A stretch of DNA of 64,000 bases from Rhodothermus marinus (GTDB lineage: Bacteria; Bacteroidota; Rhodothermia; Rhodothermales; Rhodothermaceae), in the NCBI RefSeq assembly GCF_009936275.1, contig NZ_AP019797.1, positions 1,293,501-1,357,500 of the forward strand, in the 5' to 3' direction. The notes below the pieces were generated by a model. The model was not told the DNA's origin, made no database searches, and worked only from the letters and a program-made list of their open reading frames with translations. Below are positions 1,880-22,412 of the stretch, one piece after another. A program made the translations under genes and the position numbers. The stretch's first letter is position 1, and each line of letters starts with the position of its first letter.

Positions 1880-4264
1880 ATGAGGCAGGTTCTTGTTTTT
1901 CTTGGCGTAATGCTTTTGCTGCATCTGAAAGCTGCAGCGCAGGAGCGACCGGCGTATCTGGACCCGACGCTTCCCATCGAAGTGCGCGTCGAGGACCTGC
2001 TCGGCCGCATGACGCTCGAAGAAAAAGTCGCCCAGATGCTGAGCATGTGGCAGACGAAGCGGTTGATCGTCGACGAGCAGAACCGTTTCGATCCGAGCCG
2101 GGCGCCGGAATGGTTCAAACTGGGCATTGGCCGCATCGAGCGGCCGAGCGAGTATTTCCAGACGGCGCGCGAGGCGGCCGCCTTCACCAACGCCATCCAG
2201 CGCTGGGTCAAAGAAAACACCCGTCTCGGCATTCCCGTGCTTTTCCACGAGGAAGCCCTCCACGGCATTCAGGCCGCCGAGGCGACCAGTTATCCGCAGG
2301 CGATTGCGCTGGCGAGCACGTGGAATCCGGCGCTGGTGGAGCGGGTCTACGGGCGGATTGCGCGGGAGGTGCGGGCGCGCGGGGTGCATCAGGTGCTGGC
2401 GCCGGTGGTGGACGTGGGTCGGGAGCCGCGCTGGGGTCGAATCGAGGAGACCTTTGGGGAGGATCCGTACCTGGTGGCGGAGATGGGGAAGGCGGCCGTG
2501 TGGGGGTTGCAGGGCCGTCGGGTTCCGCCGGTGGGTCCGGGTCACGTGATTGCGACGCTGAAGCACATGGCGGGTCATGGTCAGCCGGAGAGCGGGATCA
2601 ACGTGGCGCCGGTGTTTTTCGGGGAGCGTCATTTGCGGGAGGTGTTTTTGTATCCGTTTCGGGAGGCTGTGGAGAAGGCGCATGCGCTGAGTGTGATGGC
2701 TTCGTACAACGAGATTGACGGGATACCGTCGCATGTGAACGCGTGGATGTTGCGGGATGTGTTGCGGGGCGAGTGGGGCTTCCGCGGCGTCATCGTCTCC
2801 GACTGGTTTGCGATTCGTCAGCTCATCACGAAGCATCATGTAGCAGCCGACGAGGCCGAGGCGGCGCGGCGGGCGCTGGCCGCCACGGTGGACATCGAAC
2901 TCCCGGACTACGATGTGTACCCGGTATTGCTGGAGCAGGTGAAGAAGGGGTTGATTCCGGAGTCGGCGGTTGACGAGGCGGTTCGTCGGTTATTATGGGC
3001 GAAGTTTGCAGTGGGATTGTTTGACGGGGAGCCGTATGTGGACGAGGCGGAGGCTTCGCGGGTGAACGCGTCGGAGGAGGATCGGGCGCTGGCGTTGGAG
3101 GCGGCGCGCGAGGCGATCATTTTGTTGAAGAACGACGGGTTGTTGCCGTTGGAGGCGGGTCGGTTGGATCGGGTGGCGGTGATTGGGCCGCATGCGGGGG
3201 AGGTGTTGCTGGGGGGATATTCGGGGCGTCCGCGTTACACGGTGAGCATACTGGAGGGATTGCGTGAGCGGTTGCGTGGGGAGGCGGAGGTGTTGTATGC
3301 GGAGGGAGTTCGGATCACGGAAGACTCGGTCTTCACCGACGAACCCCAGCCGCATCTGGGAGGCGAGCGCGCCTATCCGCGCTGGGTGGCCGACACGGTG
3401 GTCTGGACCGATCCGGAATCCAACCGCCGACGCATTGAGGAGGCGGTCGCGCTGGCCCGTCGGAGTGATGTGGCGATTCTGGTGGTTGGCGGCAACGAGC
3501 AGACTTCGCGCGAGGCCTGGGCGGTGAACCATCTTGGAGATCGTTTGTCGTTGCGGTTGCCGGGTCAGCAGGAGGAGTTGGTGAAGGCGGTGTCGGCGAC
3601 GGGGGTTCCGGTGGTGCTGGTGGTGATTGGCGGGCAGCCGTACGTGATCACGGAGTTGGTGGACCGGGTGGGAGCGATCGTGTGGGGCTGGTATCTGGGT
3701 CAGGAGACGGGTCGTGCGGTGGCGGAGGTGTTGCTGGGGGATTACAATCCGGCGGGCCGTTTGCCGATCACGATACCGCGTCACGAGGGGCAGCTTCCGG
3801 CCTATTACAGTCACAAGCCGAGCAAGGAATTGGACTACGTGGACGGTACGAGTCGGCCGCTTTTCCCGTTCGGGTATGGTTTGTCGTACACGCGTTTTGC
3901 GTATCGGAGCGTTCGGTTGGAGCCGGATCGGGTGGGGGGATGTGGAGTGGTTCGGGTGCTGGTGGAGTTGGAGAACGTGGGGGATCGTGCCGGGGATGAG
4001 GTGGTGCAGGTGTATGTTCGGGATCGGGTGAGCAGTGTGGCGCGACCGGTGAAGGAGCTGAAGGGATTTCGTCGGGTGCATCTGGGGCCGGGGGAGCGGA
4101 AGGTAGTGGAGATTGAGCTGGGGCCGGAGGCGTTTGCGTTTTACGGCTTGGAGATGGAGCGGGTAGTGGAGGCGGGATGGTTTGATGTGCTGGTGGGGGG
4201 TAATTCGGAGGAGTTGATCAGCGTGCCCCTGGAAATCACCGAAGACTGCAATCTGGGGCCCTGA
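1880..4264 (+). CDS. GH3 beta-glycosidase, complete, exported
   Basis: Complete 794-residue GH3 enzyme, family-typical length. The N-terminus MRQVLVFLGVMLLLHL followed by KAAAQ is a Sec signal peptide, so it acts in the periplasm or outside the cell. Order: TIM-barrel domain (about 30-370) with KHMAGHG and nucleophile D308 in VSDW; alpha/beta sandwich with GGNEQTSREA carrying the likely acid/base Glu and LPGQQEELV; C-terminal FnIII-like domain with VVQVYVRD. It resembles BglX-type enzymes. Its last 616 codons are a near copy of the preceding gene, but residues just after the nucleophile (WFAIRQ against WHGIPQ) and around the acid/base loop (REAWAVNH against REAYAPYH) differ, suggesting different substrate preference. 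No promoter-sized gap separates the two genes. An intrinsic terminator follows. Confidence 0.96.
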   Translation: MRQVLVFLGVMLLLHLKAAAQERPAYLDPTLPIEVRVEDLLGRMTLEEKVAQMLSMWQTKRLIVDEQNRFDPSRAPEWFKLGIGRIERPSEYFQTAREAAAFTNAIQRWVKENTRLGIPVLFHEEALHGIQAAEATSYPQAIALASTWNPALVERVYGRIAREVRARGVHQVLAPVVDVGREPRWGRIEETFGEDPYLVAEMGKAAVWGLQGRRVPPVGPGHVIATLKHMAGHGQPESGINVAPVFFGERHLREVFLYPFREAVEKAHALSVMASYNEIDGIPSHVNAWMLRDVLRGEWGFRGVIVSDWFAIRQLITKHHVAADEAEAARRALAATVDIELPDYDVYPVLLEQVKKGLIPESAVDEAVRRLLWAKFAVGLFDGEPYVDEAEASRVNASEEDRALALEAAREAIILLKNDGLLPLEAGRLDRVAVIGPHAGEVLLGGYSGRPRYTVSILEGLRERLRGEAEVLYAEGVRITEDSVFTDEPQPHLGGERAYPRWVADTVVWTDPESNRRRIEEAVALARRSDVAILVVGGNEQTSREAWAVNHLGDRLSLRLPGQQEELVKAVSATGVPVVLVVIGGQPYVITELVDRVGAIVWGWYLGQETGRAVAEVLLGDYNPAGRLPITIPRHEGQLPAYYSHKPSKELDYVDGTSRPLFPFGYGLSYTRFAYRSVRLEPDRVGGCGVVRVLVELENVGDRAGDEVVQVYVRDRVSSVARPVKELKGFRRVHLGPGERKVVEIELGPEAFAFYGLEMERVVEAGWFDVLVGGNSEELISVPLEITEDCNLGP

Positions 4265-5550: not shown

Positions 5551-6501
5551 ATGCGTATTGTCTCGCTTTTACCCGCTGCCACCGAATGGGTTTGTGCGTT
5601 CGGGGCAGGCGCGTCGCTGGTCGGACGCTCCCATGAATGCGACTTTCCGCCGGAAATTCTGGATCGGCCGGTGCTGACCCGCCCGCGGGTCGATGCCCGG
5701 GGCACCTCGGCCGAAATCGACCGCCAGGTCCGCACCGTATGGGAGCAGGGGCTGAGCCTCTATGAAATCGACTGGGAGCGACTTCGTGCGCTCCAACCGG
5801 ATCTGATTCTGACGCAGGCACAGTGTCCGGTATGCGCTGTGTCGGTTTCGGAACTGGAAGCCGGGCTGGCCGACTGGCCGGCGCCCCGGCCGCAGGTGCT
5901 CGCCATGGCGCCCCAGACGCTCAAGCAGGTGCTGGATGCCGCGCTGGAGATCGGCCGCCACATCGGCCGCCTGCACGAGGCCATGAGCTACCTGGCCCGG
6001 GCCGAGAAGCGCCTGCGCCACCTTCGGGACTTTCTCGGCCTGCGTCGCCGTAGCGATCCGTCCGCGTTCCCGCGGGTGGCCTGCATCGAATGGATTGAGC
6101 CACTGATCGTGGCAGGCCACTGGATGCCCGACGTGGTGGAGATGGCCGGCGGACAGGCCGTGCTGGCCGAGCCAGGCCAGCCTTCCCGCACGATCACCTG
6201 GGCCGAACTGCAGGCGGCCGATCCCGACGTGCTGCTGCTTATGCCCTGTGGCTTTACCGTGGCCCAGACTGCACGCGAACTGCCGGAGCTCGTGCAGCGA
6301 CCGGAATGGCAGGCGCTGCGGGCCGTGCAGGAAGGACGGGTCTTCGTGCTGGACGGCCACGCCTACTTCAACCGTCCGGGACCCCGCCTGTACCGCTCCA
6401 TCGAACTGGTGGCGGTCTGCCTGCACCCGGACCGGCTTTCGCCGGAGTTGCTCGACGTGCAACCCTGGGAGTTGCAGACGCTGGAGACCGCACTGGCCTG
6501 A
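5551..6501 (+). CDS. Cobalamin/metal-chelate binding protein, BtuF-like
   Basis: 316-residue class III periplasmic-binding-protein fold (BtuF/FhuD type): MRIVSLLPAATEWVCAFGAG opening, RPRVDARGTSAEIDRQV, a long backbone helix, then the second lobe with CIEWIEPLIVAGHWMPDVVEMAGG and NRPGPRLYRSIELVA. The first lobe resembles cobalamin-binding proteins. No signal peptide is evident, which is common in this subfamily, so it may act in the cytoplasm or be misassigned as a transporter component; no permease or ATPase gene lies nearby. Its TGA abuts the convergent stop of the next gene (TGATCA). A 30-codon remnant matching its C-terminus lies 4.2 kb away at 10629-10721. Confidence 0.82.
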   Translation: MRIVSLLPAATEWVCAFGAGASLVGRSHECDFPPEILDRPVLTRPRVDARGTSAEIDRQVRTVWEQGLSLYEIDWERLRALQPDLILTQAQCPVCAVSVSELEAGLADWPAPRPQVLAMAPQTLKQVLDAALEIGRHIGRLHEAMSYLARAEKRLRHLRDFLGLRRRSDPSAFPRVACIEWIEPLIVAGHWMPDVVEMAGGQAVLAEPGQPSRTITWAELQAADPDVLLLMPCGFTVAQTARELPELVQRPEWQALRAVQEGRVFVLDGHAYFNRPGPRLYRSIELVAVCLHPDRLSPELLDVQPWELQTLETALA

Positions 6502-6849
6502 TCAGCTGCGACGCCGAAGCGTCTGGCGCAGCAGTTGTTCCAGTTCCAGCATGGCCTGCGCGCCTTCCAGCAGCTCGCGCAGCTCGATCAGTTCGGCGCG
6601 GGTGCAGGCGTAGCGCACGTCGGCCGCCTCCAGCCGTCCCGTCAGCGACAGCGCGCACAGGCTCCCGGGCTCCCAGGCGTCGAGGGGGACCGAGCGCACG
6701 CGTTCGCAGAGCGCCTGGAAGCACTCGGGCGAAAGTTGCAGCAGCAATCGTCCGAGGGCCACTTCGAAGCGGCCGCAGCAGGCGCAGCGCAGCACGTAGC
6801 CGTGCTCGGTGCAGAACAGGTACGGACGTTCGGCCGAGGCTGCATGCAT
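6502..6849 (-). CDS. Small CxxC protein, possibly DUF6686-like
   Basis: 115 residues from the ATG at 6849. The N-terminus (YLFCTEHGYVLRCACCGRFEVALG) has a possible zinc or haem-binding CACC cluster, followed by a helical region with an ELIELRELLEGAQAMLELEQ stretch. I think it belongs to a small family seen beside TonB/HmuY genes in Bacteroidota, but the family name is from memory and uncertain. It starts 14 nt after the chelatase-like gene and is probably the last gene of the leftward haem cluster. An upstream ATG at 6933 overlaps the previous gene by 70 nt and gives a low-complexity extension, so it was not used. Confidence 0.6.
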   Translation of the reverse strand: MHAASAERPYLFCTEHGYVLRCACCGRFEVALGRLLLQLSPECFQALCERVRSVPLDAWEPGSLCALSLTGRLEAADVRYACTRAELIELRELLEGAQAMLELEQLLRQTLRRRS

Positions 6850-6863
6850 GGCTTTCGGTGGTT

Positions 6864-7763
6864 TCAGTGGGTGGGACGCAGCGCCGTGCTTGTCTCTTTC
6901 AGCCAGCCGGCCTGACGGCTCAGCCGCTCCCACTGGCGCTCGATCCAGGCGGTGATGGCCGGATGCGGCAAGAGGCCGGTTCCGTCGGCCCGGTAGGTCA
7001 GCCCGTCCAGCACCTTCCGGTAGGGACCGAAGCCGTAGACCCGGAACGGAATGACCAGCACGGTGCGGCCGGCCTGCGTTTCGGCCTCAACAAAAGCCCG
7101 GATGCGTCGCTCGGCGTCGGTGCGAAGCGCCGGCCAGTCTTCCCGCAGCGTCTCGACGCGTACGGCGTGAAAGCCCAGCCCGCGGATGAGCTGCGCGTGG
7201 CGCTCCATGGCCACGATCCAGCGGGCGTTGAGCACATCGTCTTCCGTGCCATGTGCCAGCAGCAGCACAGATTCCCGGTTGGGATTCTGGCTGAGTGCCA
7301 GCGCCCGATCGGCCAGGATCGGACCGATTTCGGGCGCTTCCATCAGGCCCGCCTCGCTCAGCACCAGTTCCAGGTTGTGCCGTAGCGGAGGTGGTGGGCC
7401 TTCCGAGTGGTGCCCGTCAGGGCTACCGTGGCGATGCAGCAGAAAGCGCGCGGGCGGGTCCGGACGCAATCCCAGCAGGTATTCGGTCTGGTGCTTGAAC
7501 GAAGCGCCGTCCATGAACAGCCGGACCACCACGGCCCGGCGGGCACCCAGTGCCTGCAGCGTGTCGAGTGCCTGCTGGAGCGTGTGCGGATCGGCCATCC
7601 CGAACGCGACGGCCGTTGGCCGTCCGGCCCGCAGCGGCGCCACCGCTTCGAGCACGGCCTGGTTCCACGCCGGGGGGCCACCGTGCGCCATCACGAGCAG
7701 GCCCGGCTTCGTGCTGTCGGGCGTAGAGATCAGTGTGCTCCAGATCAAAAGCAGTGTCAGCAT
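6864..7763 (-). CDS. CbiK/CbiX-like chelatase, probably exported
   Basis: 299-residue two-domain protein of the class II chelatase fold (sirohydrochlorin cobalto-/ferrochelatase family). Each half has a candidate metal-binding His at the end of a buried strand: GLLVMAHGGPP near residue 22 and VLLLAHGTEDD near residue 167. The extreme N-terminus MLTLLLIWSTLIS is hydrophobic, suggesting export, as in periplasmic CbiK of Desulfovibrio. No cobalamin or sirohaem biosynthesis genes are adjacent; it lies downstream of a HmuY lipoprotein and a TonB receptor, so handling of haem or another tetrapyrrole in the periplasm is more likely than cofactor synthesis (inference). Strong ribosome-binding site GGAGGG before the ATG. 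Confidence 0.8.
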   Translation of the reverse strand: MLTLLLIWSTLISTPDSTKPGLLVMAHGGPPAWNQAVLEAVAPLRAGRPTAVAFGMADPHTLQQALDTLQALGARRAVVVRLFMDGASFKHQTEYLLGLRPDPPARFLLHRHGSPDGHHSEGPPPPLRHNLELVLSEAGLMEAPEIGPILADRALALSQNPNRESVLLLAHGTEDDVLNARWIVAMERHAQLIRGLGFHAVRVETLREDWPALRTDAERRIRAFVEAETQAGRTVLVIPFRVYGFGPYRKVLDGLTYRADGTGLLPHPAITAWIERQWERLSRQAGWLKETSTALRPTH

Positions 7764-7783
7764 GGCTTTGCCCTCCGGTCAGG

Positions 7784-8455
7784 TTATTGCAGACGACGGG
7801 AGCCGTCGGGTTGAAAGACGTACTCGAACGTGTAGTAGCGCGAAGGATTGGCTTCGGGATCGATGGCACCGGGATCGGGAGCGCCTTTGTAGTAGCTCAG
7901 GATCCGCACCTTGGCATAGCGACCGTCGGCCGTACGCACGACGATCGTGCGGCCGGGAATCGGAGTGACGATGTGTGTGGTGGGATCGTAGTTGTACCAG
8001 CCGTTGCCGGAGCCGGGGCAGATGGCGCGCTTGACGCCATTGGGGCATTCGTCCACGCCGTCCACCCGGAACTGATCGTCGGTCGGCGCTTCCGTCACCT
8101 CGTCGAAAGGCACCTCCAGCACGACCGCGCCGCCCTGTCCCGGACCGCTCGTGCCGCCGTTGATCAAAATGTTCGTGCCCTGGAAGGCCAGGTCCCAGGC
8201 CGTCGAAGCCGAGTCGCTTCGGTCCGGCTCGTCGTAGCGTAGCACGATCTCGCCGGTGCGCAGGCTGAAGAACGTGTAGCGTCCGGTGCCGACCGGCCGT
8301 CCGGTCTGAGGATCCGGTGTGGTGGGATCGGCTGGCAGGTCTTCGACCCGCACGGCCTCGACCGGCGTGGTTTCATCCAGCGGTTCGCTGCTGTCGCAGG
8401 CAGCCAGCAGCAGGACCAGCGTCAGGCTCAGCAGCAGGAAGGTTCGTGTGGGCAT
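7784..8455 (-). CDS. hmuY: HmuY-family haem-binding lipoprotein
   Basis: 223 residues starting MPTRTFLLLSLTLVLLLAAC, a lipoprotein signal with the lipidated Cys in LLAACDSS. The rest matches the HmuY beta-fold: TGRYTFFSLRTGEIVLRYDE, STAWDLAFQGTNILING, WYNYDPTTHIVTPIPGRTIVVRTADGRYAKVRILSYY and YYTFEYVFQPDGSR. HmuY proteins capture haem at the outer surface and hand it to a TonB receptor. The receptor gene ends 20 nt upstream on the same strand and the chelatase-like gene begins 20 nt downstream, consistent with one operon. The frame stays open far upstream inside the receptor gene, but only the ATG at 8455 gives a lipoprotein signal. Confidence 0.88.
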   Translation of the reverse strand: MPTRTFLLLSLTLVLLLAACDSSEPLDETTPVEAVRVEDLPADPTTPDPQTGRPVGTGRYTFFSLRTGEIVLRYDEPDRSDSASTAWDLAFQGTNILINGGTSGPGQGGAVVLEVPFDEVTEAPTDDQFRVDGVDECPNGVKRAICPGSGNGWYNYDPTTHIVTPIPGRTIVVRTADGRYAKVRILSYYKGAPDPGAIDPEANPSRYYTFEYVFQPDGSRRLQ

Positions 8456-8475
8456 GGTTCGCTTCGGGTTTGAGG

Positions 8476-10515
8476 TTACACATGAACGGTGAGCATCACA
8501 AACCAGCGGCGACCGGGCTGGAAGGGCATCAGCGCCGGACGCCGTAGATCGAACAGGTTGAAAGCACCGCCCTGAAGCTCCAGGTGACGGCCCAGCCGAC
8601 GTCCGACGGTCAGGTGCCAGAGGCTGTAGCCGGGCACGTACTCGTCGGCGCGGTTGGGCACACCGTTGCCGTCCACGTCGCGGTAGCCGTAGCGGCTGCG
8701 CCACACGCCGCGAAGCGCCACGGTCAGTCCGAGCGAAGTGGGTTGCCAGCGTAACTGGACCGTGCCGCTGTGGCGCGAGCGCCCGAAAAGTCCGCCGTAG
8801 TCGCTGCGCTGCAGGCGATAATCGCGGCCCGACGCCGTGCGCCCGTACAGCCGTCCCGCGTCGATGGCCTCGAGCACGTCGCGATCGGCCGTCTCCAGGT
8901 ACTGATAGCTGAGGCTGAGCGTGAGCGCCGACACGGGCTGCGCCGTCAGCGTGGCTTCCAGACCCCGGGTGTAGATGCGGTCCAGGTTGAAGTAGGAATA
9001 GACGAACGCCTGGTTGGTCTTCTGGGCGACGGGTTGCGTATCGATCAGATCGCGCACTTCGTTGTGAAACAGGTTGAGCGACAGCGCCAGCGCCTCGTCG
9101 AACCACGTCGCCTCGCCCCCGAGGTTGAAGGCGACGGAGCTTTCGGGTCGCAGCGTGGTGACGCGATCCGGATCGATCAGCAGCCGCGCGATCTGGCCTT
9201 CGGCCTGCAGCCGCGCCAGTTCTTCCCGGAAGCGGGTGACGCCAAACACGCTGTAGCCGGCCGCCGCGTTCGTAAAAACCAGGTAGCGCTGGCGAAAGTC
9301 GGGCGCTTTGAAGCCGCTGCCGATCGACGCGCGCAGCCGGTAGGCCCCGGCGGGACGAATCAGTACGGCCAGGCGTGGACTGAGCCGACTGGCGTAGTCG
9401 CTGTGGGCGTCGAAGCGAAAGCCCGTGACCATTTCGATCCAGCGGCGGGGTGTCCATTCGTGCTGGGCGAAAAGAAAGCCGCTCCGGGCCGAGACGCGTC
9501 CGGCGTAGCGGTCGCCTTCCAGTGCTTCTTCGATAGCGCCTCCGCCGAGCGTCAGGAGCTGGCGATCGGTCAGAAGCTGCTGCAGTCGCAGCTCGAGCTT
9601 GCGGTAGGCCTGGGAAAATCGATCCGCGTAGTACAGCGCGCCGTCTTGCCGACGGGTCATGCGCGTGCGCGTTTCGTAGCCGGTCAGGTAGAGCGACGCG
9701 TCGAGCCGCAGACGACGGGTGAGCTGCTGTTGCAGGCGGGGATGCAGGCTCCAGTCCGTCTGGCGATAGGTTTCGTCGTGGGGGATGCCGTCCAGCGCAA
9801 AGGCGCTCCGGCGCTGTTGCTGGTGGCGTCGGAAGGCCAGCGAGAGGAGCGAACGGCGGGGCAGGTCCCAGGTCAGGTAAGCGTCGGCCGTGTAGTCGCG
9901 TAGCGCAGGAGCAGTAGGACCAAAAACTTCCGGGGCCAGATCGTAGCCTTCGGTGCGGTAGTGGTCAAGCAGCAGGGTGGCGCCCAGGCGGTTGCGTCGC
10001 AGTTCGCTGGTAGCGCCGAGCTGGTAAGTCCCGAACCTTTCCATACGGGCGTGCAGGGTAGTGGCCATCGGTGCTTCGGGACGATGCCGGATCAAGTTAA
10101 CCACCCCAGCCAGTGCTTCACTGCCGTAAAGCGACGACGTGGGACCACGTACGATTTCGATGCGGTCCAGGCCCTGTACAGTGAAACGCTTTAGGTCCAG
10201 CGTACCTGCTGTGCGGCCAATGACCGGCTCTCCATCGAGTAACAGCAACGTGTAATCGGGCTCAAAGCCCTGGATCATGAGACCAGTGCCATGATCTTCG
10301 AAGAGCAATAGGCCGGGTTGTTCGGCCAGCACATCCGATAGGCGAGCAGCACCACTCCGACGAATGGCTTCGGCCGGGACGAGTTGCACGGGGACCGGGA
10401 CATCGCTCACGGCCCGCATGGAACGCGTAGCGGTGATGACGACAGGCGGCAGCGGCACCGCCCGGGTTGTATCGATAGCAACCTGTGGGAGCAGTAGCAA
10501 CAACAGGAGTTTCAT
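8476..10515 (-). CDS. TonB-dependent outer-membrane receptor, HmuR-like
   Basis: 679 residues from the ATG at 10515: signal peptide MKLLLLLLLPQVAI, TonB-box-like PPVVITATR, plug domain (SGAARLSDVLAEQPGLLLFEDHG, LDRIEIVRGPTSSLYGSEAL, AGVVNLI) and a 22-strand-type barrel ending GRRWFVMLTVHV. There is no N-terminal carboxypeptidase-like domain, unlike the second receptor in this window. Pairing with HmuY points to haem or another metal-tetrapyrrole as ligand, though BtuB-like use cannot be excluded. A 23-bp palindrome sits 11 nt upstream of the start and could be a metal-responsive operator. A longer frame to 10662 runs through that palindrome and lacks a signal peptide. Confidence 0.93.
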   Translation of the reverse strand: MKLLLLLLLPQVAIDTTRAVPLPPVVITATRSMRAVSDVPVPVQLVPAEAIRRSGAARLSDVLAEQPGLLLFEDHGTGLMIQGFEPDYTLLLLDGEPVIGRTAGTLDLKRFTVQGLDRIEIVRGPTSSLYGSEALAGVVNLIRHRPEAPMATTLHARMERFGTYQLGATSELRRNRLGATLLLDHYRTEGYDLAPEVFGPTAPALRDYTADAYLTWDLPRRSLLSLAFRRHQQQRRSAFALDGIPHDETYRQTDWSLHPRLQQQLTRRLRLDASLYLTGYETRTRMTRRQDGALYYADRFSQAYRKLELRLQQLLTDRQLLTLGGGAIEEALEGDRYAGRVSARSGFLFAQHEWTPRRWIEMVTGFRFDAHSDYASRLSPRLAVLIRPAGAYRLRASIGSGFKAPDFRQRYLVFTNAAAGYSVFGVTRFREELARLQAEGQIARLLIDPDRVTTLRPESSVAFNLGGEATWFDEALALSLNLFHNEVRDLIDTQPVAQKTNQAFVYSYFNLDRIYTRGLEATLTAQPVSALTLSLSYQYLETADRDVLEAIDAGRLYGRTASGRDYRLQRSDYGGLFGRSRHSGTVQLRWQPTSLGLTVALRGVWRSRYGYRDVDGNGVPNRADEYVPGYSLWHLTVGRRLGRHLELQGGAFNLFDLRRPALMPFQPGRRWFVMLTVHV

Positions 10516-10525
10516 AAGAGACAAC

Positions 10526-10548
10526 TTATTTGGATTTGGTCTAAATAA
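10526..10548. promoter_or_regulatory. 9-5-9 palindrome, candidate metal-regulator operator
   Basis: TTATTTGGA, a 5-nt spacer, then TCTAAATAA: an inverted repeat with one mismatch in an AT-rich patch just before the TonB receptor start. Symmetry and location fit binding of a Fur- or DtxR-family dimer. The regulator identity is inference. Confidence 0.5.
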
Positions 10549-10628
10549 TAAAACTGGGTAAATGAATGTAAAAGTGGGGATATGTGAAGCTATGGTAAAA
10601 AAGGGGTAAGCGCCGGCTGGCTGTTGTT

Positions 10629-10721
10629 TGGGCTCCGATGCTTTTCCCAGACCGCCTCGCATCTGCCCTGCTGGAAGTCCAGCCCTGGGAGCTGCAGCCG
10701 TTGGAAGCAGCGCAGGCCTGA
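10629..10721 (+). pseudogene. C-terminal remnant of a second BtuF-like gene
   Basis: In the frame ending TGA at 10719-10721 the translation contains FPDRLASALL followed by EVQPWELQPLEAAQA and a stop. This aligns codon by codon with the end of the complete gene at 5551-6501 (HPDRLSPELL, DVQPWELQTLETALA). Synonymous sites differ widely, so it is an old paralogue rather than a recent copy. No homology is recognisable upstream of about 10629. It is in the same orientation as the intact gene, and the two ends bracket the haem cluster. Confidence 0.7.
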
Positions 10722-10873
10722 TGGATTCCGGATAGGGCAGGTAGGGACAGCCGAGCGCCCGGACGCTTTTCTTCAGAGTGGTGCAGCTGGAAAAAGTGCA
10801 AGGCTGCCCTTAACTTAAGCGGACAGCTCTTTAGTTGAAGGAAGTCACGTAACCGAACCCGAACCCGAAAGTC

Positions 10874-12334
10874 ATGGCCCTTGATATCTCCACGCTCGAA
10901 ACCTGGCTCTGGGATGCCGCCTGTGCCATTCGCGGCCCCGTAGATGCCCCGAAGTTCAAGGATTACATCCTTCCGCTGGTTTTCCTCAAGCGCCTTTCCG
11001 ACGTGTTTGAGGATGAGATGGACCGTCTGGCCGAGGAGTACGGCAGCCGAGAGGTAGCACAACGTATCGTTGAGGAGGAACGGGAGCAAGGCATCATCGC
11101 CCGTGGTGGCGGCTCGGTGCGCTTCTACATTCCCGAAAACGCCCGCTGGAAAGCCATCCGTACCCGTGGCCAGGCCGGCCTGGGCCAGTTCCTCACCGAT
11201 GCCGTGCGGGCCGTAGCCCGCGAGAACCCGCGTCTGCAGGGCGTTATCGACATCGTCGACTTCAACGCGACAACGGCAGGGCAGCGGATCGTGGCAGATG
11301 AGTACCTGGCCCGCCTAGTGGACGTACTCTCTCGCCATCGCCTGGGCTTGCGTGATGTGGAACCCGACATCCTGGGCCGCGCCTACGAGTACCTGCTGCG
11401 CAAGTTCTCCGAGGGCCAGGGCCAGAGCGCGGGCGAGTTCTACACCCCGCGCGAGGTGGCCGTGCTCATGGCCCGCATCCTGGAGCCCCAACCGGGCATG
11501 ACCGTCTACGACCCTTGCTGCGGATCTGGCGGGCTGCTCATCAAGTGTCACCTCCGCCTGCTGGAGACCCATGGAGAGGAACAAAACGGCCACCGCCGGT
11601 TGCCTGCCCATCATGCGCCGCTTCAACTCTTTGGCCAGGAAATCAACCCGGCCACCTTCGCCATGGCGCGCATGAATGCGGTGATCCACGACATGGAGGC
11701 CGACATTCGCCTGGGCGACACCATGCGCCACCCCGCCTTTCGCGATGAGACCGGCCGCCTCATGGCCTTTGATTTGGTCACCGCCAATCCCATGTGGAAC
11801 CAGAACTTTCCTACGGATCTGTACGAGAACGACCCCTACGAACGTTTTCACCTGGGCATCCCGCCCGCTTCCAGCGCGGATTGGGGCTGGCTGCAACACA
11901 TGCTGGCCTCGCTGAAAGAGGAGGGCCGTATGGCGGTGGTGTTGGACACGGGTGCGGTGAGCCGGGGCAGCGGCAACCAGGGCTCCAACCGCGAGCGGGA
12001 CATTCGCAAGGCTTTCGTGGAACGCGATCTGATCGAGGCGGTGATCTTGTTGCCGGAGAACCTTTTCTACAACACCACCGCGCCGGGCATCATTCTCGTG
12101 GTCAACCGCCAGAAGCGCCACCCCGGCGAGATCCTGCTCATCAACGCGAGCAAACGGTTTGCTAAGGGCCGCCCCAAGAACTACCTGACCGACGAACACA
12201 TCGAGACCATCGCCCGGCTGTACCACGAATGGAAAGCGGAGGAGGGCGTATCCGCGATCATCACCAACGAGGAGGCGGCCCGCAACGACTATAACCTGAG
12301 CCCCAGCCGCTACGTGGCCCAAAACGGCGCCTAG
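10874..12334 (+). CDS. hsdM: Type I restriction-modification DNA methyltransferase, HsdM
   Basis: N6-adenine methyltransferase subunit of a type I system. It opens with the HsdM N-terminal helical domain (ETWLWDAACAIRGPVDAPKF, YILPLVFLKRLSDVFEDEM). Then come GEFYTPREVAVLMARIL, the SAM-binding motif I DPCCGSGG from residue 213, and the catalytic NPMW from N305, a variant of NPPF. As read, it stops at TAG after 486 codons. The same frame continues for 40 more codons with a normal HsdM C-terminal tail, so this is a truncated product. It is the first gene of an operon with hsdS and hsdR. Loss of the C-terminal helix could weaken contact with HsdS, but activity cannot be judged. Confidence 0.93.
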   Translation: MALDISTLETWLWDAACAIRGPVDAPKFKDYILPLVFLKRLSDVFEDEMDRLAEEYGSREVAQRIVEEEREQGIIARGGGSVRFYIPENARWKAIRTRGQAGLGQFLTDAVRAVARENPRLQGVIDIVDFNATTAGQRIVADEYLARLVDVLSRHRLGLRDVEPDILGRAYEYLLRKFSEGQGQSAGEFYTPREVAVLMARILEPQPGMTVYDPCCGSGGLLIKCHLRLLETHGEEQNGHRRLPAHHAPLQLFGQEINPATFAMARMNAVIHDMEADIRLGDTMRHPAFRDETGRLMAFDLVTANPMWNQNFPTDLYENDPYERFHLGIPPASSADWGWLQHMLASLKEEGRMAVVLDTGAVSRGSGNQGSNRERDIRKAFVERDLIEAVILLPENLFYNTTAPGIILVVNRQKRHPGEILLINASKRFAKGRPKNYLTDEHIETIARLYHEWKAEEGVSAIITNEEAARNDYNLSPSRYVAQNGA

Positions 12335-12457
12335 GAGACCCTGCCGCTGGAAGAGGCCATGGTGCTGCTGCGCGAAGCGGAAGAAGAGCGCACCGAGATG
12401 GAGCACCGCCTACAAGAGGTGCTGGGAGTTTTGGGGCTTCAAGGCAAGGGGACATAG
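12335..12457 (+). other. Separated in-frame C-terminal tail of hsdM
   Basis: Directly after the TAG at 12332-12334 the same frame encodes ETLPLEEAMVLLREAEEERT and then EMEHRLQEVLGVLGL before a second TAG at 12455-12457. This is the usual HsdM C-terminal coiled-coil. It ends 3 nt before the next gene, the spacing expected of the original stop. The first TAG therefore looks like a nonsense substitution. Confidence 0.85.
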
Positions 12458-12460
12458 CGC

Positions 12461-13807
12461 ATGGAGAAGCTTGAGGCTACGGAAGGCCAAACCCTGGAGT
12501 TCAAAAGGCAATGGACCGATCGGGCTCTGGAGGATCTGGCGGCCTTCGCCAACACGGAAGGCGGTAGGCTCCTCCTCGGCGTCCGAGACGATGGGGAAGT
12601 TGTGGGCACGCGAGCGGATGACCGAGAACTCCAGCGCATCGCCAACCTCATCGCCGCCCATCTGGGCATCACGCCGTCGGTTCGCGTGATTGAGATGCAG
12701 GGCCTGCCGGTGGTGGAAATTCGGGTAGATCCGGCCCCGGGGTTGGTGCCCTACAAGGGGCGGTATCTCCGCCGCGTGGGCACCACAAACCGCGATTTCT
12801 CGCCCGAGGAACTGGCCCGCCACATTCTCACGCGTTCCGGGAGGAGTTGGGATGGGCTGCCCAGCGATTGGTCGCTGGAGGAGGTGGATCCGGAAGCCCT
12901 GAAGGCCTTTGCCCGCCTGGCTCGAGAGAGGCTTCCCCATCTCGATCCCTCCGATCCCGAAGGGACGCTGCGCAACCTCAACCTCGTAGAGGGGAAGCGG
13001 CTGAAGAACGCGGGGGTGCTGCTCTTTGGCAAGCGGCCCCAGCGCCTCTTTCCCCAGGCGCAGGTGCGCGTCGGCATCTTCCGGGGAGATGAGATCCTGG
13101 ATAGCCACGATTTCACGGGCACCTTGTGGGAGCAGTTAGACGGGGTGATGGCGCGCTTTCGCCAGGTGCTCAAGGTGCGTTTCGCCATCCGGGTGGAAGA
13201 GCCGTCTTTAGCGGGGCTACAGCGTGAAGAGACATGGGAATATCCGCTGGAGGCCCTGCGGGAGGCGGTGGTGAACGCCCTCATCCACCGGGATTACACC
13301 TATCCGGCGGACATCCAGATCCGTTTGGAGGAAGATCGCTTGGAGGTTTGGAGTCCGGGGGAGTTGCCGTCGCCGCTTACGCCTGAGCAGCTCTATCAAC
13401 CCCACTCGTCGGTGCTTCGTAATCCCCTTCTCGCCCAGGCCTTCTACTTTGCCGGCGTCATCGAACGCTGGGGCACGGGCACCACGCGCATCGTCCGCCT
13501 CTGCCGGGAGCAAGGGCTTCCGGAGCCCGAGTTTGCGAACTGGCAGGGTGGCTTTCGGGTGACCTTCCTGAAGGACCCTTACACCCCGGAGCGGCTACGC
13601 AAGTTGGGCCTGAACGAGCGGCAGATCAGGGCAGTGCTGTATGTGAAGGAGCATGGGGAGATCTCGAATCGTGACTACAGAAGTCTGACAGGTGTGTCGG
13701 ACGAAACTGCCCGCCAAGACCTCCTGGCGCTGGTCAAACGGAAGGTGTTGCGGGTTAAAGGAAAAGGGAGGGCAACGAGGTATGTGCTGGGGAGTTTTGG
13801 CGATTAA
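12461..13807 (+). CDS. AlbA_2 (Schlafen-like) DNA-binding, GHKL ATPase and winged-helix protein
   Basis: 448 residues. The N-terminal AlbA_2/divergent AAA-4 domain has EGQTLEFKRQWTDRALEDLA and AFANTEGGRLLLGVRDDGEVVG. The middle region has a GHKL-like ATPase part (EALREAVVNALIHRDY, LEVWSPGELPSPLT, RWGTGTTRIVRLC). A C-terminal winged helix (NRDYRSLTGVSDETARQDLLALVKRKVL) follows. Such proteins are often annotated as RecG-like or transcriptional regulators and recur inside type I restriction operons between hsdM and hsdS; a role in regulating or assisting the system is inferred. It begins 3 nt after the original hsdM stop. The C-terminus ends in GSFGD, where a run of GGCGATT-like repeats begins. 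Confidence 0.85.
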   Translation: MEKLEATEGQTLEFKRQWTDRALEDLAAFANTEGGRLLLGVRDDGEVVGTRADDRELQRIANLIAAHLGITPSVRVIEMQGLPVVEIRVDPAPGLVPYKGRYLRRVGTTNRDFSPEELARHILTRSGRSWDGLPSDWSLEEVDPEALKAFARLARERLPHLDPSDPEGTLRNLNLVEGKRLKNAGVLLFGKRPQRLFPQAQVRVGIFRGDEILDSHDFTGTLWEQLDGVMARFRQVLKVRFAIRVEEPSLAGLQREETWEYPLEALREAVVNALIHRDYTYPADIQIRLEEDRLEVWSPGELPSPLTPEQLYQPHSSVLRNPLLAQAFYFAGVIERWGTGTTRIVRLCREQGLPEPEFANWQGGFRVTFLKDPYTPERLRKLGLNERQIRAVLYVKEHGEISNRDYRSLTGVSDETARQDLLALVKRKVLRVKGKGRATRYVLGSFGD

Positions 13808-13916
13808 TTGGCGTTTTCTTGGCGATTTTGGCGATTACTTGGAGATTCCAATAAGGGCTCAAAAAGGACTCAAAGGGGTCAAAAACGGGTCAAAGGGGCA
13901 ACAAACAACCCGATGG
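13797..13916 (+). repeat. Two short degenerate tandem repeats before hsdS
   Basis: The gap between the AlbA_2 gene and hsdS holds several spaced copies of TTGGCGATT-like sequence (13797-13850). Four copies of a TCAAA core at roughly 10-14 nt spacing follow (13858-13908). The gene's own last codons form the first repeat unit, so the array may vary the protein's C-terminus. Confidence 0.6.
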
Positions 13917-13925
13917 AGGAAAAGC

Positions 13926-15253
<1,328 letters not shown>

Positions 15254-15257
<4 letters not shown>

Positions 15258-16021
15258 ATCCTATTCATTTAGACCCTGGCATTTACCTAAATGTATTTCC
15301 CGTGACGTTGCCGGACGACCCCATTCCTATGGTTCAAGCTAATAGGGCATCGTGGACCGACTTGCGACCTCTTCGTGAAAGGATCAACAACCACAAAGTG
15401 TGGGTTTATCCAGACGGAAAAATCGTATATGGCTACGGCCCTGACAAAGCCATTTTGAAAGATCAGGGGTTTCAGGAAACTGAGGTCAGGCTTAGAGAAA
15501 CACCCAGATTGGCTGCTTGGCTAATCGTCGAAGGGATAGTGAACCTACTTAGGCAGGAAGGCTATGAGACTCTTTTTCCAAAGGAACGCTCCGAATCAAT
15601 CAAGGGACGCTGGCAACTCTATCACCCGAACCAATTCAAAAAAGTTGCCGGTAGTGGGATTCGCGTGCATCAAGGGTATGACCTGCGTGCTTTCTTCTGG
15701 AAAGACATCGTTTCTGAACAGCTTGCCTTCGGGTTGATCGTGGACATTATTTGGGCACTGCGGGACGATGAAAATCAGTCGCTCAATATGCGCCAGATCA
15801 GGCAGCGATATGGGTACAATGCGATAATTGAAGTTGGCAAAGTTCAAGGAGAATACTTGCCGGGTAGCAATAGGATCAATACCGAAGTGGCTCGTCAGCG
15901 ATTCCGGGAGAATATACTACCTTTCATCCAAAGACATTCAAAGTTTGAACTGCCTTGCGGTGGGGTGGCCCGGATTCACGCGAAGCCTATCCGAATCATC
16001 CTGGGAGGTGAGGAGCAATGA
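15254..16021 (+). CDS. N-L1-L2-like partner of split Argonaute (AfAgo-N type)
   Basis: 255-residue protein with no domain I can assign by motif alone. It starts on ATGA overlapping the hsdS stop and ends overlapping the MID-PIWI gene start. Predicted character is mixed alpha/beta. GIRVHQGYDLRAFFWKDI and FGLIVDIIWALRDD resemble the beta-hairpin of long Argonaute N-lobes, and the tail GGVARIHAKPIRIIL resembles an L2-like exit strand. In Archaeoglobus fulgidus a MID-PIWI-only Argonaute works as a heterodimer with a separately encoded N-L1-L2 protein. Gene order, size and the partner's close similarity to AfAgo suggest this is that subunit. APAZ domains of short Argonaute systems are related and are the main alternative. 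Low GC for this genome. Confidence 0.65.
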
Positions 16022-17298
16022 GCACTTTTACAGGTGAAATGCTTAAGCCGCCAGCACTGCGATTTAATTACTCATCAACCTCTGCTCAGCATGACAACCC
16101 ACGGGAAGGACTAAAAACTTATGGCCCTTACGACTCTGACATCCTGGGTAAAGATCGTATCCGCGCTGCTGTGATTTTCCCTTCTCAGTATGATAGAGAA
16201 AAGACTACGCTGGTACGCTGGCTAACGAACGGTTATACATCCAAGCACGGATCGTTTAGAGGCTTTAAAAACCTCTTTAAAATCTCTTTAAGCATAGAGA
16301 GAGAATATCCCCTTTCTGTAGAGAATGAGAAAGAAGTACAGAGTGCAATCCGAGACTTGGCGTGTCAGGGCAACGTAGATCTGGCGTTAATTCTTATCAC
16401 TTCACAGGATGGAGACCTATATCGAATCATCAAGCAAGAACTCCTAGGCAACGGTATCCCAAACCAGATTGTGACAGTTGAGAAGTTGCGTGATGCAAGA
16501 CAATTGCCTTGGGTGTTAGAAAATATTGCGTTAGCCTGCTACGCTAAAAGTGGGGGCACCCCCTGGGTTATTGCTTCCGAGAGCAGTCGACGCGAACTTG
16601 TTATCGGCATCAGCCGTACGCAAGATCGTAACAAGCAGTTTCTCGTGGGATTCGTCACTCTTTTTACCTAGGATGGTGATTTTCTATTGCTGCACTCATT
16701 GGCACCGGTTTTGGAATGGGAGCAGGAGAAATACGTAAAAGGGCTAACCGACTTGATCGTCGAGGCCTACCACGAATATCGCGAGATTCAAGGCACACCT
16801 GACGCAATCATACTGCACCTTTGCAAACGGCCTGGCCGCTTCCGGGAGGTTGAGGCTGTGCAGCGAGCCCTTCAGCAGATAGGCGATGTTCCTTATGCCC
16901 TGATCCATCTCAACGACGACAGTAGTTATCGGCTATTCGATACAAGTCACGCCACTTATGTCCCCCAGGCCGGGCTGAAGGTGGATTTGGGCCGGCGCAA
17001 CGTCCTGTTACTGCTTGATGGACGCATCGGTGATAGGCGCTATCGTAGAGGCGTACCACGGGTGTTAGATATTTCCATGGATAAACGCTCTACGATCTCC
17101 GCTGATGAATTCCCCCGTTTGGTTCGCCAGATCTACAATTTCGCCCGGGTTAATTGGCGTGGGTTTAACGCGCGTGCCGTTCCCGTTACACTCAACTATT
17201 CCTACCTCATCGCCCGTCTTATCGTAGAGATCGGTGCGAATAGATGGAACCAAGTTATCAGTGCAGGTCGATTGAGGGATAAGGCATGGTTCCTATGA
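16018..17298 (+). pseudogene. MID-PIWI prokaryotic Argonaute (AfAgo type), interrupted by in-frame TAG
   Basis: 426-codon frame interrupted only by TAG at codon 218 (16669-16671). Similarity to Archaeoglobus fulgidus Ago (about 427 residues) is visible throughout: GLKTYGPY near residue 31, AKSGGTPWV near 176, ALIHLND in the PIWI part, VNWRGFNARAVPVTLNY near 378, and the C-terminal WFL. MID residues that hold the guide 5' phosphate are kept: Y135, K139, Q150 and K177 (Y-x3-K, IPNQ, KSGG). PIWI catalytic positions are not: the first Asp is S199 in VIGIS, and the second Asp region reads LHLCKRPG. It should bind guide and target without slicing. Without suppression the product would be 217 residues; a TTG at 16687 could restart the rest. 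Confidence 0.85.
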
Positions 17299-18470
17299 GA
17301 ATGAACTTCTACCGGTATCGAGAAGAGGTCAAGCGAGCAATTCTCCAGCGGGTCGCTCGTCTGAACTCTGCATGGGACCCATTTGGTGTTTCTTGGTTGG
17401 CCTATGCTCTTAGCCAAGATGGTTTTGAAGAAAATCAACCGTTATTAGAATTAGTCCGAAGGCTTAGCCGTTGGGCAGAAAACGATGAGGCCTGGGCTGC
17501 GCGACGGAACCTGGGAGCGCTATGTTTCCTGGGCTATTTCCTGAGCAAAATGTCCAAAGATGCACCGGACTTCACAGATCGGGTCTTGGAGCAGATCGAG
17601 CGATTAGAGGAGCAGAAGAGCCACAAGTTTTCGCCGGTGAATGATCCAGAGCAGGTCTTCCCAATGGCTCTGCTGGTTGGATTTCTGGAGGAAGCCTCTC
17701 AGAGCCTCAAGGATTTTCTGAAAGAGGTAGCCCGTACACGAATCCAAGGCGCGATCAAGCGCCGGATCCTTTACTGCGCAGCGTTAAGGGAGTTGGGCGA
17801 GAATCCTTCCATATCCATAGAAGACGTGAGCGATCCCAGCGATGTTATCGCGTTAGTATGGTATTGGGAGCGATATGCCCCAAGCGGTGAGCAGGCAAAG
17901 TTGTGGAAGGCCTTTGAAAACATCAAGGATGGGTTATCTTTTGACCGAGATGAAGTGCGCGAAGGAGTCCGTGTTCTTTCAGATTCGGAAGTAGCCCTGC
18001 TGTATGAAGCACTCACTCGTGAGACTGCTGAGCCCGATCCCAATTTGCTGTTTGAGTTTTATCTGCTTCATCCACGCGTAAAGGATATTGCCCGAAAACA
18101 TTTCGAAAATGGTAACTATTTGACTGCGGTTTTTGAAGCTGCAAAAGCTTTTGAGAAGTATTTAAAGGAGCTGACAGGAATAGAACAAACATGCCGTCCT
18201 TTGGTGCAGCAAAGCATGGGCGGGAATTCTCCTCGCATTAAATTCAACAACTGTCGTACTAAATCAGAAAAAAATGAACAAGAGGGATTAAAGTTGATAG
18301 CAGAAGGCATTTGTGCTGCTTTTCGCAACCCTAAAGGACACGAGCCGGAGGATAGCCCTCAGGTGCAAATAGACGCTTTGGAAGCATTGGATCAACTTGT
18401 GATTATCAGCTACATTTTCAAGCGAGTAGAAAGGGCTCAAGCAAAATTAGGTTCAGAGGAAACGCTGTGA
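17295..18470 (+). CDS. HEPN-domain protein (TIGR02391/Ymh type), putative RNase effector
   Basis: 391 residues if started at ATG 17295, which overlaps the Argonaute stop as ATGA (17286 and 17301 are alternatives). The N-terminal about 250 residues are helical with no recognised motif. The C-terminal about 130 residues match the TIGR02391/Ymh HEPN-like domain: HPRVKDIARKHFENGNYLTA, VFEAAKAFEKYLKELTG, ICAAFRNPKGHEPED. The RNPKGH segment (R344 to H349) fits the R-x4-6-H signature of HEPN ribonucleases. HEPN proteins often kill or arrest infected cells by cutting RNA. Placement directly after a dead Argonaute suggests that guide-target recognition triggers this protein; this is inference. Confidence 0.75.
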   Translation: MRMNFYRYREEVKRAILQRVARLNSAWDPFGVSWLAYALSQDGFEENQPLLELVRRLSRWAENDEAWAARRNLGALCFLGYFLSKMSKDAPDFTDRVLEQIERLEEQKSHKFSPVNDPEQVFPMALLVGFLEEASQSLKDFLKEVARTRIQGAIKRRILYCAALRELGENPSISIEDVSDPSDVIALVWYWERYAPSGEQAKLWKAFENIKDGLSFDRDEVREGVRVLSDSEVALLYEALTRETAEPDPNLLFEFYLLHPRVKDIARKHFENGNYLTAVFEAAKAFEKYLKELTGIEQTCRPLVQQSMGGNSPRIKFNNCRTKSEKNEQEGLKLIAEGICAAFRNPKGHEPEDSPQVQIDALEALDQLVIISYIFKRVERAQAKLGSEETL

Positions 18471-18742
18471 CCTATTACAAATTCCAACGCCACCACCGCC
18501 GTTCCATCCGGTTGAAGGGATACGATTACACCCAACCGGGCGCGTATTTCGTCACCATCTGCACCCACGGGCGCGCCCCTCTGTTCGGCGACGTGGTGGA
18601 CTGGGAAATGCGGTTGAACGACATGGGGGAAATCGTGCGCGCGTGTTGGCATGAAATCCCGGACCATTTCCAACACGTGGAATTGGACGCCTTCGTGGTG
18701 ATGCCCAATCATGTCCACTGCATCGTATGCATCGTGGACAAC

Positions 18743-18770
18743 GTAGGGGCGACGCATGCGTCGCCCCTAC
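18743..18770. repeat. Perfect 28-bp REP palindrome inside RAYT gene
   Basis: Left arm GTAGGGGCGACGCA and its exact reverse complement, with no spacer. A partial right arm ATGCGTCGCCCC repeats at 18771-18782. It is translated in frame as GATHASPLHASPRR within the transposase. Confidence 0.85.
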
Positions 18771-18893
18771 ATGCGTCGCCCCGACGGAATAAACCGCGTG
18801 GGCCTGCGCCGGGTTCTATTGGCGCCATTGTGGGTGCATTCAAATCCGCGGTCACGCAGCGCATCAACCAACGGTGCGGCACTCCCGGCACAT

Positions 18894-18931
<38 letters not shown>

Positions 18932-19075
18932 ACCGAGCGCGCCCTGAACGCCATCCGGCGCTACATTGCCGAAAATCCCCTGCACTGGCACCTGGACCGC
19001 TACAACCCCTACGCTACCGGCACCGACCCCCAGGCATGGGAGATCTGGCAAATGATAAAGGAAGATGCCCAAACG

Positions 19076-19103
19076 GTAAGGCGACGCGCTGCGTCGCCCT
19101 TAC
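19076..19103. repeat. Second REP-like hairpin at RAYT/hsdR junction
   Basis: GTAAGGCGACGC, 3-nt loop, then GCGTCGCCCTTAC: 12 paired bases with one bulged C. Same family as the palindrome at 18743. It ends 12 nt before the hsdR ATG, so it may affect hsdR translation. Confidence 0.75.
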
Positions 19104-19115
19104 GGGAGGCCAGCC

Positions 19116-22040
19116 ATGACCTTATCTAGCGAACGCCGCATCGTCCAAAACCCCTTCATTCGCTACGCCGAGGAGGCCGGCTGGCAGTATCTATCTCCGG
19201 AGGAAGCCCTGCGGCTCCGCGGCGGAGAGGATAGCCCCATCCTGCACACCGTTTTTATCGAGCAACTGCAGCGCTTAAACCCCGGAATTGTGGATTCGGT
19301 GACCAAGGCCGAGGAGGTCTTCAACCGTCTCATCCGCGTCCGGCCTAACATCGAAGGTAACCTGGAAGCCTGGGAGTACCTCAAGGGGATGAAAACCGTC
19401 TTCGTCGAAGCCGAGCGCCGCGAGCGCAACCTGCGCCTGCTCGATACGGAGAACATAGAGGCCAATCGCTTCCATGTCACCGACGAGTTTCGCTTCGTCA
19501 GCGGCCACGTCGCCATCCGCGCGGATGTGGTGCTCTTCGTCAACGGGATCCCCGTGATCGTCGTGGAAACCAAGGCGGCCACCCGCCCCGAAGGCATTGC
19601 CGAAGCCTTCGACCAGATCCGCCGTTACCACCAGGAAGCGCCTGAACTCATGGCCCAGGCGCAGATCTTCGCCCTCACCCACCTGGTCAGGTTTTTCTAC
19701 GGTGCCACCTGGAGCCTATCGCGCAAAACTCTCTTCAACTGGCGGGAAGATCTTGAGAGACAGCGCGCCGTGTCCCGACAACCTGCCGATTTCGAAACCT
19801 TGGTCAAATCCTTCGTCGCTCCGCGGCGGGTGCTGCGCGTGCTCACCGAATACATCCTTTTCACCCGCCGTGATGGCGAGTTGAGCAAGGTGGTCCTGCG
19901 CCCCCACCAGATGCGGGCCACCGAAAAGGTGATTGCCCGCGCTCGGGACCCGCAGAGGCGCCGTGGCCTGGTCTGGCACACCCAGGGTTCGGGCAAGACT
20001 TACACCATGATTACGGTGGCCAAACTACTGCTGGAGGACCCGCGCTTCCAGAACCCCACGGTCCTCATGATCGTGGACCGCAACGAACTCCAGCAGCAAC
20101 TCTTCCAAAACCTGGAGTCCGTCGGCTTTGGCCGGGTGCATGTGGCCCGGAGCAAACGTCATCTGCGCGAACTTTTGCGCCAGGACACCCGCGGCCTGAT
20201 CGTGTCCATGATCCACAAGTTCGACAAGGCCGACGCGAACTTCAACACCCGCGCCAACATCTTCGTGCTCATCGACGAAGCCCACCGCTCCACCGGCGGC
20301 GACCTGGGCAACTACCTGATGGGCGCCCTGCCCAACGCTACCTTCATCGGCTTCACCGGCACGCCCATCGACAAAAGCGCCCACGGCAAGGGCACCTTCA
20401 AGACCTTCGGCGGGGATGACCCCGGCGGCTATCTGGACAAATACGCCATTCGCGAGTCCATCGAGGACGGCACCACCGTGCCCCTGCACTACCAGATGGC
20501 CCCCAACGACCTGATCGTGGACCGGAGCGCCATGGAAGCGGAGTTTTGGAAGGCCGCCGCCCTGGAGGGAGTGACCGATGTGGAAGAACTCAACCGTGTC
20601 CTGGACCGGGCCGTGACCCTCAAGAACCTGCTCAAGAACCGCCAGCGCGTGGAGCGCATTGCCTCCTTTGTGGCCAAGCACTACCGCACCTATGTGGAGC
20701 CCATGGGCTACAAAGCCTTTCTCGTCGCCGTGGACCGCGAGGCCTGCGGCCTGTACAAGGAAGCCCTGGATCACCACCTGCCGCCGGAATACAGCCAGGT
20801 GGTCATCAGCCGAGGGCATAACGACCCGCCCGAACTCAAGCGCTGGCATCTGAGCGATGAGGAAGAGGCAGCCGTGCGCAAAGCCTTCCGCAAGCCCGAT
20901 CAGCCTCCCTACATCCTCATCGTCACCGAAAAGCTGCTCACCGGCTACGACGCGCCCATCCTCTACGCCATGTACCTCGACAAGCCCATGCGCGACCATG
21001 TGCTCCTGCAAGCCATTGCGCGGGTCAACCGTCCCTATGAGGACGACGAGGGCCGGCGCAAGACCAACGGCCTGATCGTGGACTTCGTGGGCATCTTCGA
21101 CAACCTGGAGCGGGCCCTGGCCTTCGATTCCCAGGATGTGGAAGGGGTGGTGGAAGGGCTGGATGTGCTTAAGGAGCGCTTTGAGATCTTGATGCAACAA
21201 GGGCGGGAGGCGTATCTACCCCTGCGTGCAGGCAAAAGCGAAGACAAGGCGGCCGATGCCGTGCTGGAGCACTTCCGCGACCGGGAGGCGCGCGAGGCTT
21301 TCTACGCCTACTTTCGCGAACTGCAGGAGGTGTACGAAATCCTTTCGCCCGATCCCTTCCTGCGCCCTTTCCTGGAAGACTATCGCGCCCTGGTGGCGAT
21401 GTACCGTCTGCTGCGCAGCGCCTATGAGCCGCACGTGTCGGTAGACAAATCCTTCCTGCGCAAGACGGCCGAGATCGTCCAACAACACACCACCACGCAG
21501 GCCGTCCACGAGCCCCAGGCCACCTACGAGATCGGCGCCGGTGCGCTGCTGGCGCTCGTCGCTCAGGACAAACCCGACGCGGTCAAGGTTTTCAACCTGC
21601 TCCGGGCACTGCATCGCCTGGTGGAAGCCCAAGGGAAGGAACAGCCCCACCTGATCCCCATCGGCGAGCGGGCCGAAGCCATCCGTCAGGCTTACGAAGC
21701 GCGGCAGATGAACAGCCAGCAGGCCTTGGAAGCCCTGAACGACCTGGTGCGCCGCCTGCAAGAAGCCGAGGAAGAGTGGCGCGAGAGCGACCTTACACCG
21801 GAAGCCTTTGCCGTGGCCTGGTGGTTGCGGGTGCAAAAGGAGATGGACGCACCGCAAGCCCATCGTCTGGCCGCCCAAATCGAACCGGCCTTCCAGGCCT
21901 TCCCCCACTGGGCCACCAGCCAGTACCAGGAGCGCGAGCTGCGCAAGCAACTCTACAAAATCCTGGTCGAGGCGGGAGTCAAGGAAGTGGTCGCCTGGGC
22001 CGACGAAGTGTTGACCCTGTTACGGGGGATATCCTCATGA
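19116..22040 (+). CDS. hsdR: Type I restriction endonuclease subunit R, HsdR
   Basis: 974 residues, normal length for HsdR. The N-terminal PD-(D/E)xK nuclease domain has ADVVLFVNGIPVIVVETKAA, with catalytic D and E-x-K. Superfamily 2 translocase motifs follow: Walker A TQGSGKTYT near residue 290, DEAHRS, GFTGTP (motif III) and RVNRPY with a conserved arginine. The C-terminal helical region binds the methylase core. The protein translocates DNA and cuts remotely. The ATG at 19116 lies inside the 3' end of the RAYT gene, with GGGAGG upstream. The stop overlaps the next start as ATGA. It looks intact, so restriction would depend on whether the truncated HsdM still works. Confidence 0.96.
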   Translation: MTLSSERRIVQNPFIRYAEEAGWQYLSPEEALRLRGGEDSPILHTVFIEQLQRLNPGIVDSVTKAEEVFNRLIRVRPNIEGNLEAWEYLKGMKTVFVEAERRERNLRLLDTENIEANRFHVTDEFRFVSGHVAIRADVVLFVNGIPVIVVETKAATRPEGIAEAFDQIRRYHQEAPELMAQAQIFALTHLVRFFYGATWSLSRKTLFNWREDLERQRAVSRQPADFETLVKSFVAPRRVLRVLTEYILFTRRDGELSKVVLRPHQMRATEKVIARARDPQRRRGLVWHTQGSGKTYTMITVAKLLLEDPRFQNPTVLMIVDRNELQQQLFQNLESVGFGRVHVARSKRHLRELLRQDTRGLIVSMIHKFDKADANFNTRANIFVLIDEAHRSTGGDLGNYLMGALPNATFIGFTGTPIDKSAHGKGTFKTFGGDDPGGYLDKYAIRESIEDGTTVPLHYQMAPNDLIVDRSAMEAEFWKAAALEGVTDVEELNRVLDRAVTLKNLLKNRQRVERIASFVAKHYRTYVEPMGYKAFLVAVDREACGLYKEALDHHLPPEYSQVVISRGHNDPPELKRWHLSDEEEAAVRKAFRKPDQPPYILIVTEKLLTGYDAPILYAMYLDKPMRDHVLLQAIARVNRPYEDDEGRRKTNGLIVDFVGIFDNLERALAFDSQDVEGVVEGLDVLKERFEILMQQGREAYLPLRAGKSEDKAADAVLEHFRDREAREAFYAYFRELQEVYEILSPDPFLRPFLEDYRALVAMYRLLRSAYEPHVSVDKSFLRKTAEIVQQHTTTQAVHEPQATYEIGAGALLALVAQDKPDAVKVFNLLRALHRLVEAQGKEQPHLIPIGERAEAIRQAYEARQMNSQQALEALNDLVRRLQEAEEEWRESDLTPEAFAVAWWLRVQKEMDAPQAHRLAAQIEPAFQAFPHWATSQYQERELRKQLYKILVEAGVKEVVAWADEVLTLLRGISS

Positions 22041-22381: not shown

Positions 22382-22412
22382 AGGCCAGGCGGTACGGGCT
22401 GGAAGCAGGGCG

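Follow-up and report, generated by a model that had tools for sequence, protein, structure and literature searches.

Upstream of a type I restriction island in Rhodothermus marinus lies a short open frame that resembles the end of a gene found intact several kilobases away. Is it what remains of a second copy of that gene, once resident at this site, or did it come with the island? A sequence-only reading of the window (the whole stretch of 64,000 nucleotides analysed here) had placed the fragment at 10629-10721, assigned it to a second BtuF-like gene, and suggested a past duplication or recombination event possibly linked to the arrival of the island. The features concerned are listed in Table 1.

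Table 1. Positions in the window of the gene tail, its intact homologue, the restriction island and the sequence that flanks it
Feature	Position	Strand	Remarks
Intact Peripla_BP_2 (PF01497, "BtuF-like") gene	5551-6501	+	Found in 7/7 genus genomes
TonB-dependent receptor adjoining the site	8476-10515	-	First ~600 bp (~9900-10515) are a diverged, imported allele
Left imported shoulder	9900-10631		Receptor start, promoter region and novel joint at ~10616-10640
Gene tail: truncated 3' end (~28 codons and TGA) of a gene homologous to that at 5551-6501	10632-10721	+	Sequence match
Spacer, tail stop to hsdM	10722-10873		Similarity to the DNA 3' of the intact gene not detectable
Restriction/defence island: hsdM, AlbA-type ATPase-like protein, hsdS, Argonaute and HEPN module, IS200-like transposase, hsdR, YgjP-like protein	10874-22381	+	Absent from 5/7 genus genomes
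hsdM, type I methyltransferase	10874-12334	+	First island gene
Right imported shoulder: 3' end of the second TonB receptor	22413-22560		76-80% identical to 5 island-free congeners; normal beyond

The gene tail and its intact homologue

The frame that starts at 10629 translates as WAPMLFPDRLASALLEVQPWELQPLEAAQA, followed by a stop. Over 29 aligned residues, 19 are identical to the C-terminus of the 5551-6501 product (BLOSUM62 local score 90), and around the stop codon 42 of 54 bases are shared with the intact gene. Two sets of 31-codon pieces served as controls: in the six frames of the window without the intact gene (17,919 pieces) the top score off the site was 46, and in the reversed window (18,260 pieces) it was 39. 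A search of the same genome with the intact protein recovered the tail independently (E 1.9e-4, residues 286-315). With a score so far above the controls a chance match is rejected; the tail is real, left over from the 3' end of a gene homologous to that at 5551-6501, and on this point the sequence-only reading was right. Its boundaries were right at one end: the homology stops at the TGA (10719-10721), as proposed, but it begins near 10632-10644 and not at 10629.

No more of the gene was found upstream of the tail, where positions 180 to 80 bases ahead of the stop give 2 to 6 matches per 20 bases (noise). The 152 bp 3' of the tail stop were compared with the DNA 3' of the gene in six genomes (the genus set with G001 left out), and in all six between 91 and 284 of 300 shuffles score as high. 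An ungapped slide past the stop is uninformative, because true orthologues likewise fall to noise there. A search with positions 9900-10900 for another locus of the same genome from which the tail might have been copied gave only noise.

The intact gene encodes a product of 316 residues that matches PF01497 at 68.5 bits (cut-off 27.5); its nearest solved chain is annotated as vitamin B12-binding (E 3.5e-8). Four NCBIfam families were matched, all below their cut-offs, and thus no model above cut-off names its ligand. We predict a metal- or vitamin-binding protein, for which the label "BtuF-like" is apt at the level of the family and not beyond it. None of the seven genus genomes, all of which carry the intact gene, has a second near copy, and in each a distant paralogue (27-32% identity) lies elsewhere. 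As a separate observation at the start of the window, the adjacent ORFs at 60-1850 and 1880-4264, which we take to be beta-glucosidase-like, share long identical protein stretches and form a tandem duplication.

The restriction island and its distribution in the genus

Seven Rhodothermus genomes were compared (G000 to G006, G000 being that of the window), and in each the site was read through on a single contig. The tail and the type I restriction island occur together in two of them, G000 and G004, with tails that are 100% identical, and both are missing from the other five. The tail is present only with the island, and the proposed link between the two is borne out. At the five island-free sites the same neighbours enclose an empty spacer of ~105-340 bp, which runs from the TonB-receptor promoter to the end of a second, convergent TonB receptor; such an empty site in relatives is a mark of islands acquired by homologous recombination. 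The fuller second gene that the sequence-only reading had anticipated at the matching locus of island-free strains was looked for, and all five spacers are empty of any trace of it.

Among ten island proteins scanned with Pfam (smaller ORFs left out) no integrase family was matched, the only mobile function being the IS200-like transposase. Plasmids were considered as a source and gave matches of only 60-80%; the 19 matches listed all fall in the hsdM part. Between G000 and G004 the sequence is identical across 10450-10949 and 97.7-100% identical per 300-base piece over 19201-22800; the island is more variable in its middle part (as low as 81.7% at 18601-18900). These values agree with recent sharing by both lineages, but 200-base pieces that are 100% identical occur elsewhere too, outside the island, which leaves the date approximate.

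The Argonaute module of the island (15254-18470) comprises pAgo class II-like pieces and an Aga_HEPN partner, and 15225-18483 (most of the Argonaute module stretch) has no match in the island of G004. An in-frame TAG occurs at 16669-16671 in the PIWI part, and the same frame continues beyond it. The hsdS genes of G000 (13692-15257) and G004 are strongly dissimilar, and their halves match crosswise, as is expected for shuffled specificity domains.

Foreign sequence in the flanking receptor genes

The borders of the island are foreign on both sides: ~615 bp to its left (longer in G004) and ~150 bp to its right are 70-82% identical to the five island-free congeners. In the background region 6600-9150, G000 shares 97% identity with G004 and 92% with G005, the nearest island-free congener. 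The corresponding values are 98-100% and 79% at 9950-10200, 98-100% and 73% at 10451-10515, and 100% and 80% at 22413-22560; from 22561 to 23300 they are back to 99% and 95%. The left side is also mosaic. At ~9250-9900 G004 is foreign and G000 native (91% to G005), and at ~10200-10449 G000 is foreign and G004 native (92% to G005). In the tree of block A, G000 groups with G005 (100/98) and G004 falls outside, whereas block B joins G000 to G004 (100/99) and keeps G005 apart; most of the remaining forks are open. Such foreign or mosaic stretches in both flanking genes are a further mark of an island acquired by homologous recombination. The novel joint on the left was read by eye from an alignment that is unreliable past the promoter.

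When the shoulder was searched against 114 genomes of the order, all near-full-length matches lay within the genus, and those outside it were short and ~73% identical at best length; the donor should therefore belong in or near the genus. Since the flanks are foreign and mosaic and the near-full-length matches lie in the genus, the island would have entered by recombination via the flanking receptor genes, from an unsampled donor. The TonB-receptor promoter also contains an imperfect palindrome at 10528-10546 (about TTTAGACT..GTCTAAAT in relatives), recognisable in all six aligned sequences and perhaps a candidate regulator site.

Divergence of the tail

The tail is too short for placement on a tree, and its divergence was expressed as pairwise counts over 75 bases (G001 left out). 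It differs from the resident gene at 24 of these (68% identity) and is 64-69% identical to the resident-type copies, including the five other copies compared. Among themselves, copies of the gene are 67-77% identical between species outside two close groups, and 84-96% within the close groups. By these counts the tail stands at roughly the same distance from the resident gene as a copy from a different species, and is slightly more diverged than most between-species pairs. Thirteen of the 24 differences are at third codon positions, a share that fits genes diverging while coding, weakly so with 24 changes. The tail also sits inside the foreign tract, to which the start of the TonB gene belongs; this location, together with the 24 differences, argues that it is not a recent local duplicate.

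Origin of the tail

We consider it likely that the tail is the 3' end of a donor's orthologue, joined to the island, and that both were brought in by homologous recombination at the flanking TonB-receptor genes. In an unsampled donor of the Rhodothermus lineage, the last 28 codons of a PF01497 gene would have been fused to the left edge of the type I island, which stood between two TonB-receptor genes. By the simplest route that we can infer, the island would once have lain directly downstream of the gene and then been moved by an illegitimate joint. DNA of the donor, or of an intermediate, would later have passed into the G000 and G004 lineages, where recombination in the common receptor genes on each side would have imported the island, the tail and the ragged donor shoulders. 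The position of the tail suggests that it arrived in the same event as the shoulders.

In the tract as it now stands, the two outer joints are homologous. The joint at the tail is older, and its partners were not found in the 114 genomes of the order or in 394 drawn from the phylum: this gene was seen beside this hsdM neither in the former (DNA search and tail-peptide search) nor in the latter, nor was there a convincing homologue beside the three nearest hsdM relatives outside the genus. One match to the end of the tail, in G050 (E 4.6e-5), looks like chance; the open frame there lies on the other strand and presumably encodes a CTP synthase.

The main rival, which we regard as unlikely, is a tandem-duplication joint. 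A segment that starts late in the gene and extends to the TonB promoter would have been duplicated head to tail, in donor or recipient, leaving the promoter joined to a gene tail; from the stop codon onwards, the second copy would then have given way to the island. The novel joint does have the order and orientation that such a duplication produces, but the 152 bp past the tail stop match the normal downstream DNA no better than shuffles do (six of six genomes). A local and recent duplicate should moreover be near 90-100% identical to the resident gene, against the 68% observed over 75 bases; in the donor, such a duplication may still have taken place.

It is more doubtful that the site once held a full second gene, divergent from the TonB receptor, most of which was lost on arrival of the island, as the sequence-only reading implied. 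The tail is indeed a true homologue in a suitable orientation; against this stand the empty spacers of all five island-free congeners and the lack of a second near copy in any of the seven genus genomes.

A function for the fragment, either as a small ORF (27 codons from the ATG at 10638) or as a control element for hsdM, is highly improbable. The identity of G000 and G004 over the whole of 10450-10949 might speak for it, but it spans non-coding DNA equally and therefore reflects a common origin in the recent past; neither a sigma-70-like promoter on the + strand nor a terminator was found. The tail, which would be too short to fold like its parent and has no such promoter, is probably a remnant without function. 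Some integrative elements target the 3' end of a gene and leave a copy of its tail at the island edge. A site-specific element carrying a replacement tail would leave that trace here, yet we give it almost no credence, because what lies between the intact gene and the tail is the resident cluster (beside the gene in 7/7 genus genomes) and not the island, so that target gene and tail do not occupy opposite element edges, and because the island proteins scanned gave no integrase match, only the IS200-like transposase.

Relation to known systems and significance

Import of donor DNA through the receptor genes has a precedent in double recombination at flanking genes, a route described for cargo without integrases (PMC5635113). 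As far as that 2017 account goes, its islands resemble the present one in carrying cargo without its own integrase between conserved genes with foreign, recombined ends, and differ from it in that the tract here also bears a truncated gene tail whose proper place is elsewhere in the cluster. In Vibrio T6SS clusters, displaced gene pieces have been proposed to follow homology-facilitated illegitimate recombination (PMC5361080). Those arrays, in the outline given there, would share with our locus a homologous anchor, an illegitimate joint and relic pieces beside new cargo; unlike them, our locus has a single tail and no array, and the original joint was caught in no genome. It seems very unlikely to us that the 3' end of the gene acts as a repeated recombination handle in the genus, each orphan tail marking a further delivery of defence cargo to the TonB-TonB site, in the manner of displaced Rhs/T6SS 3' ends. 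Among titles on Rhodothermus restriction-modification and islands, none describes the present locus, a statement confined to titles.

The tail is real, but as a recombination scar it is ordinary and belongs to a known kind. When the edge of an island bears a matching gene tail, this need not imply a lost local duplicate. Here a gene scrap and mosaic shoulders are the trace of island transfer, and the locus offers a clear, small example of a restriction island moving between thermophile species via recombination in common flanking genes.
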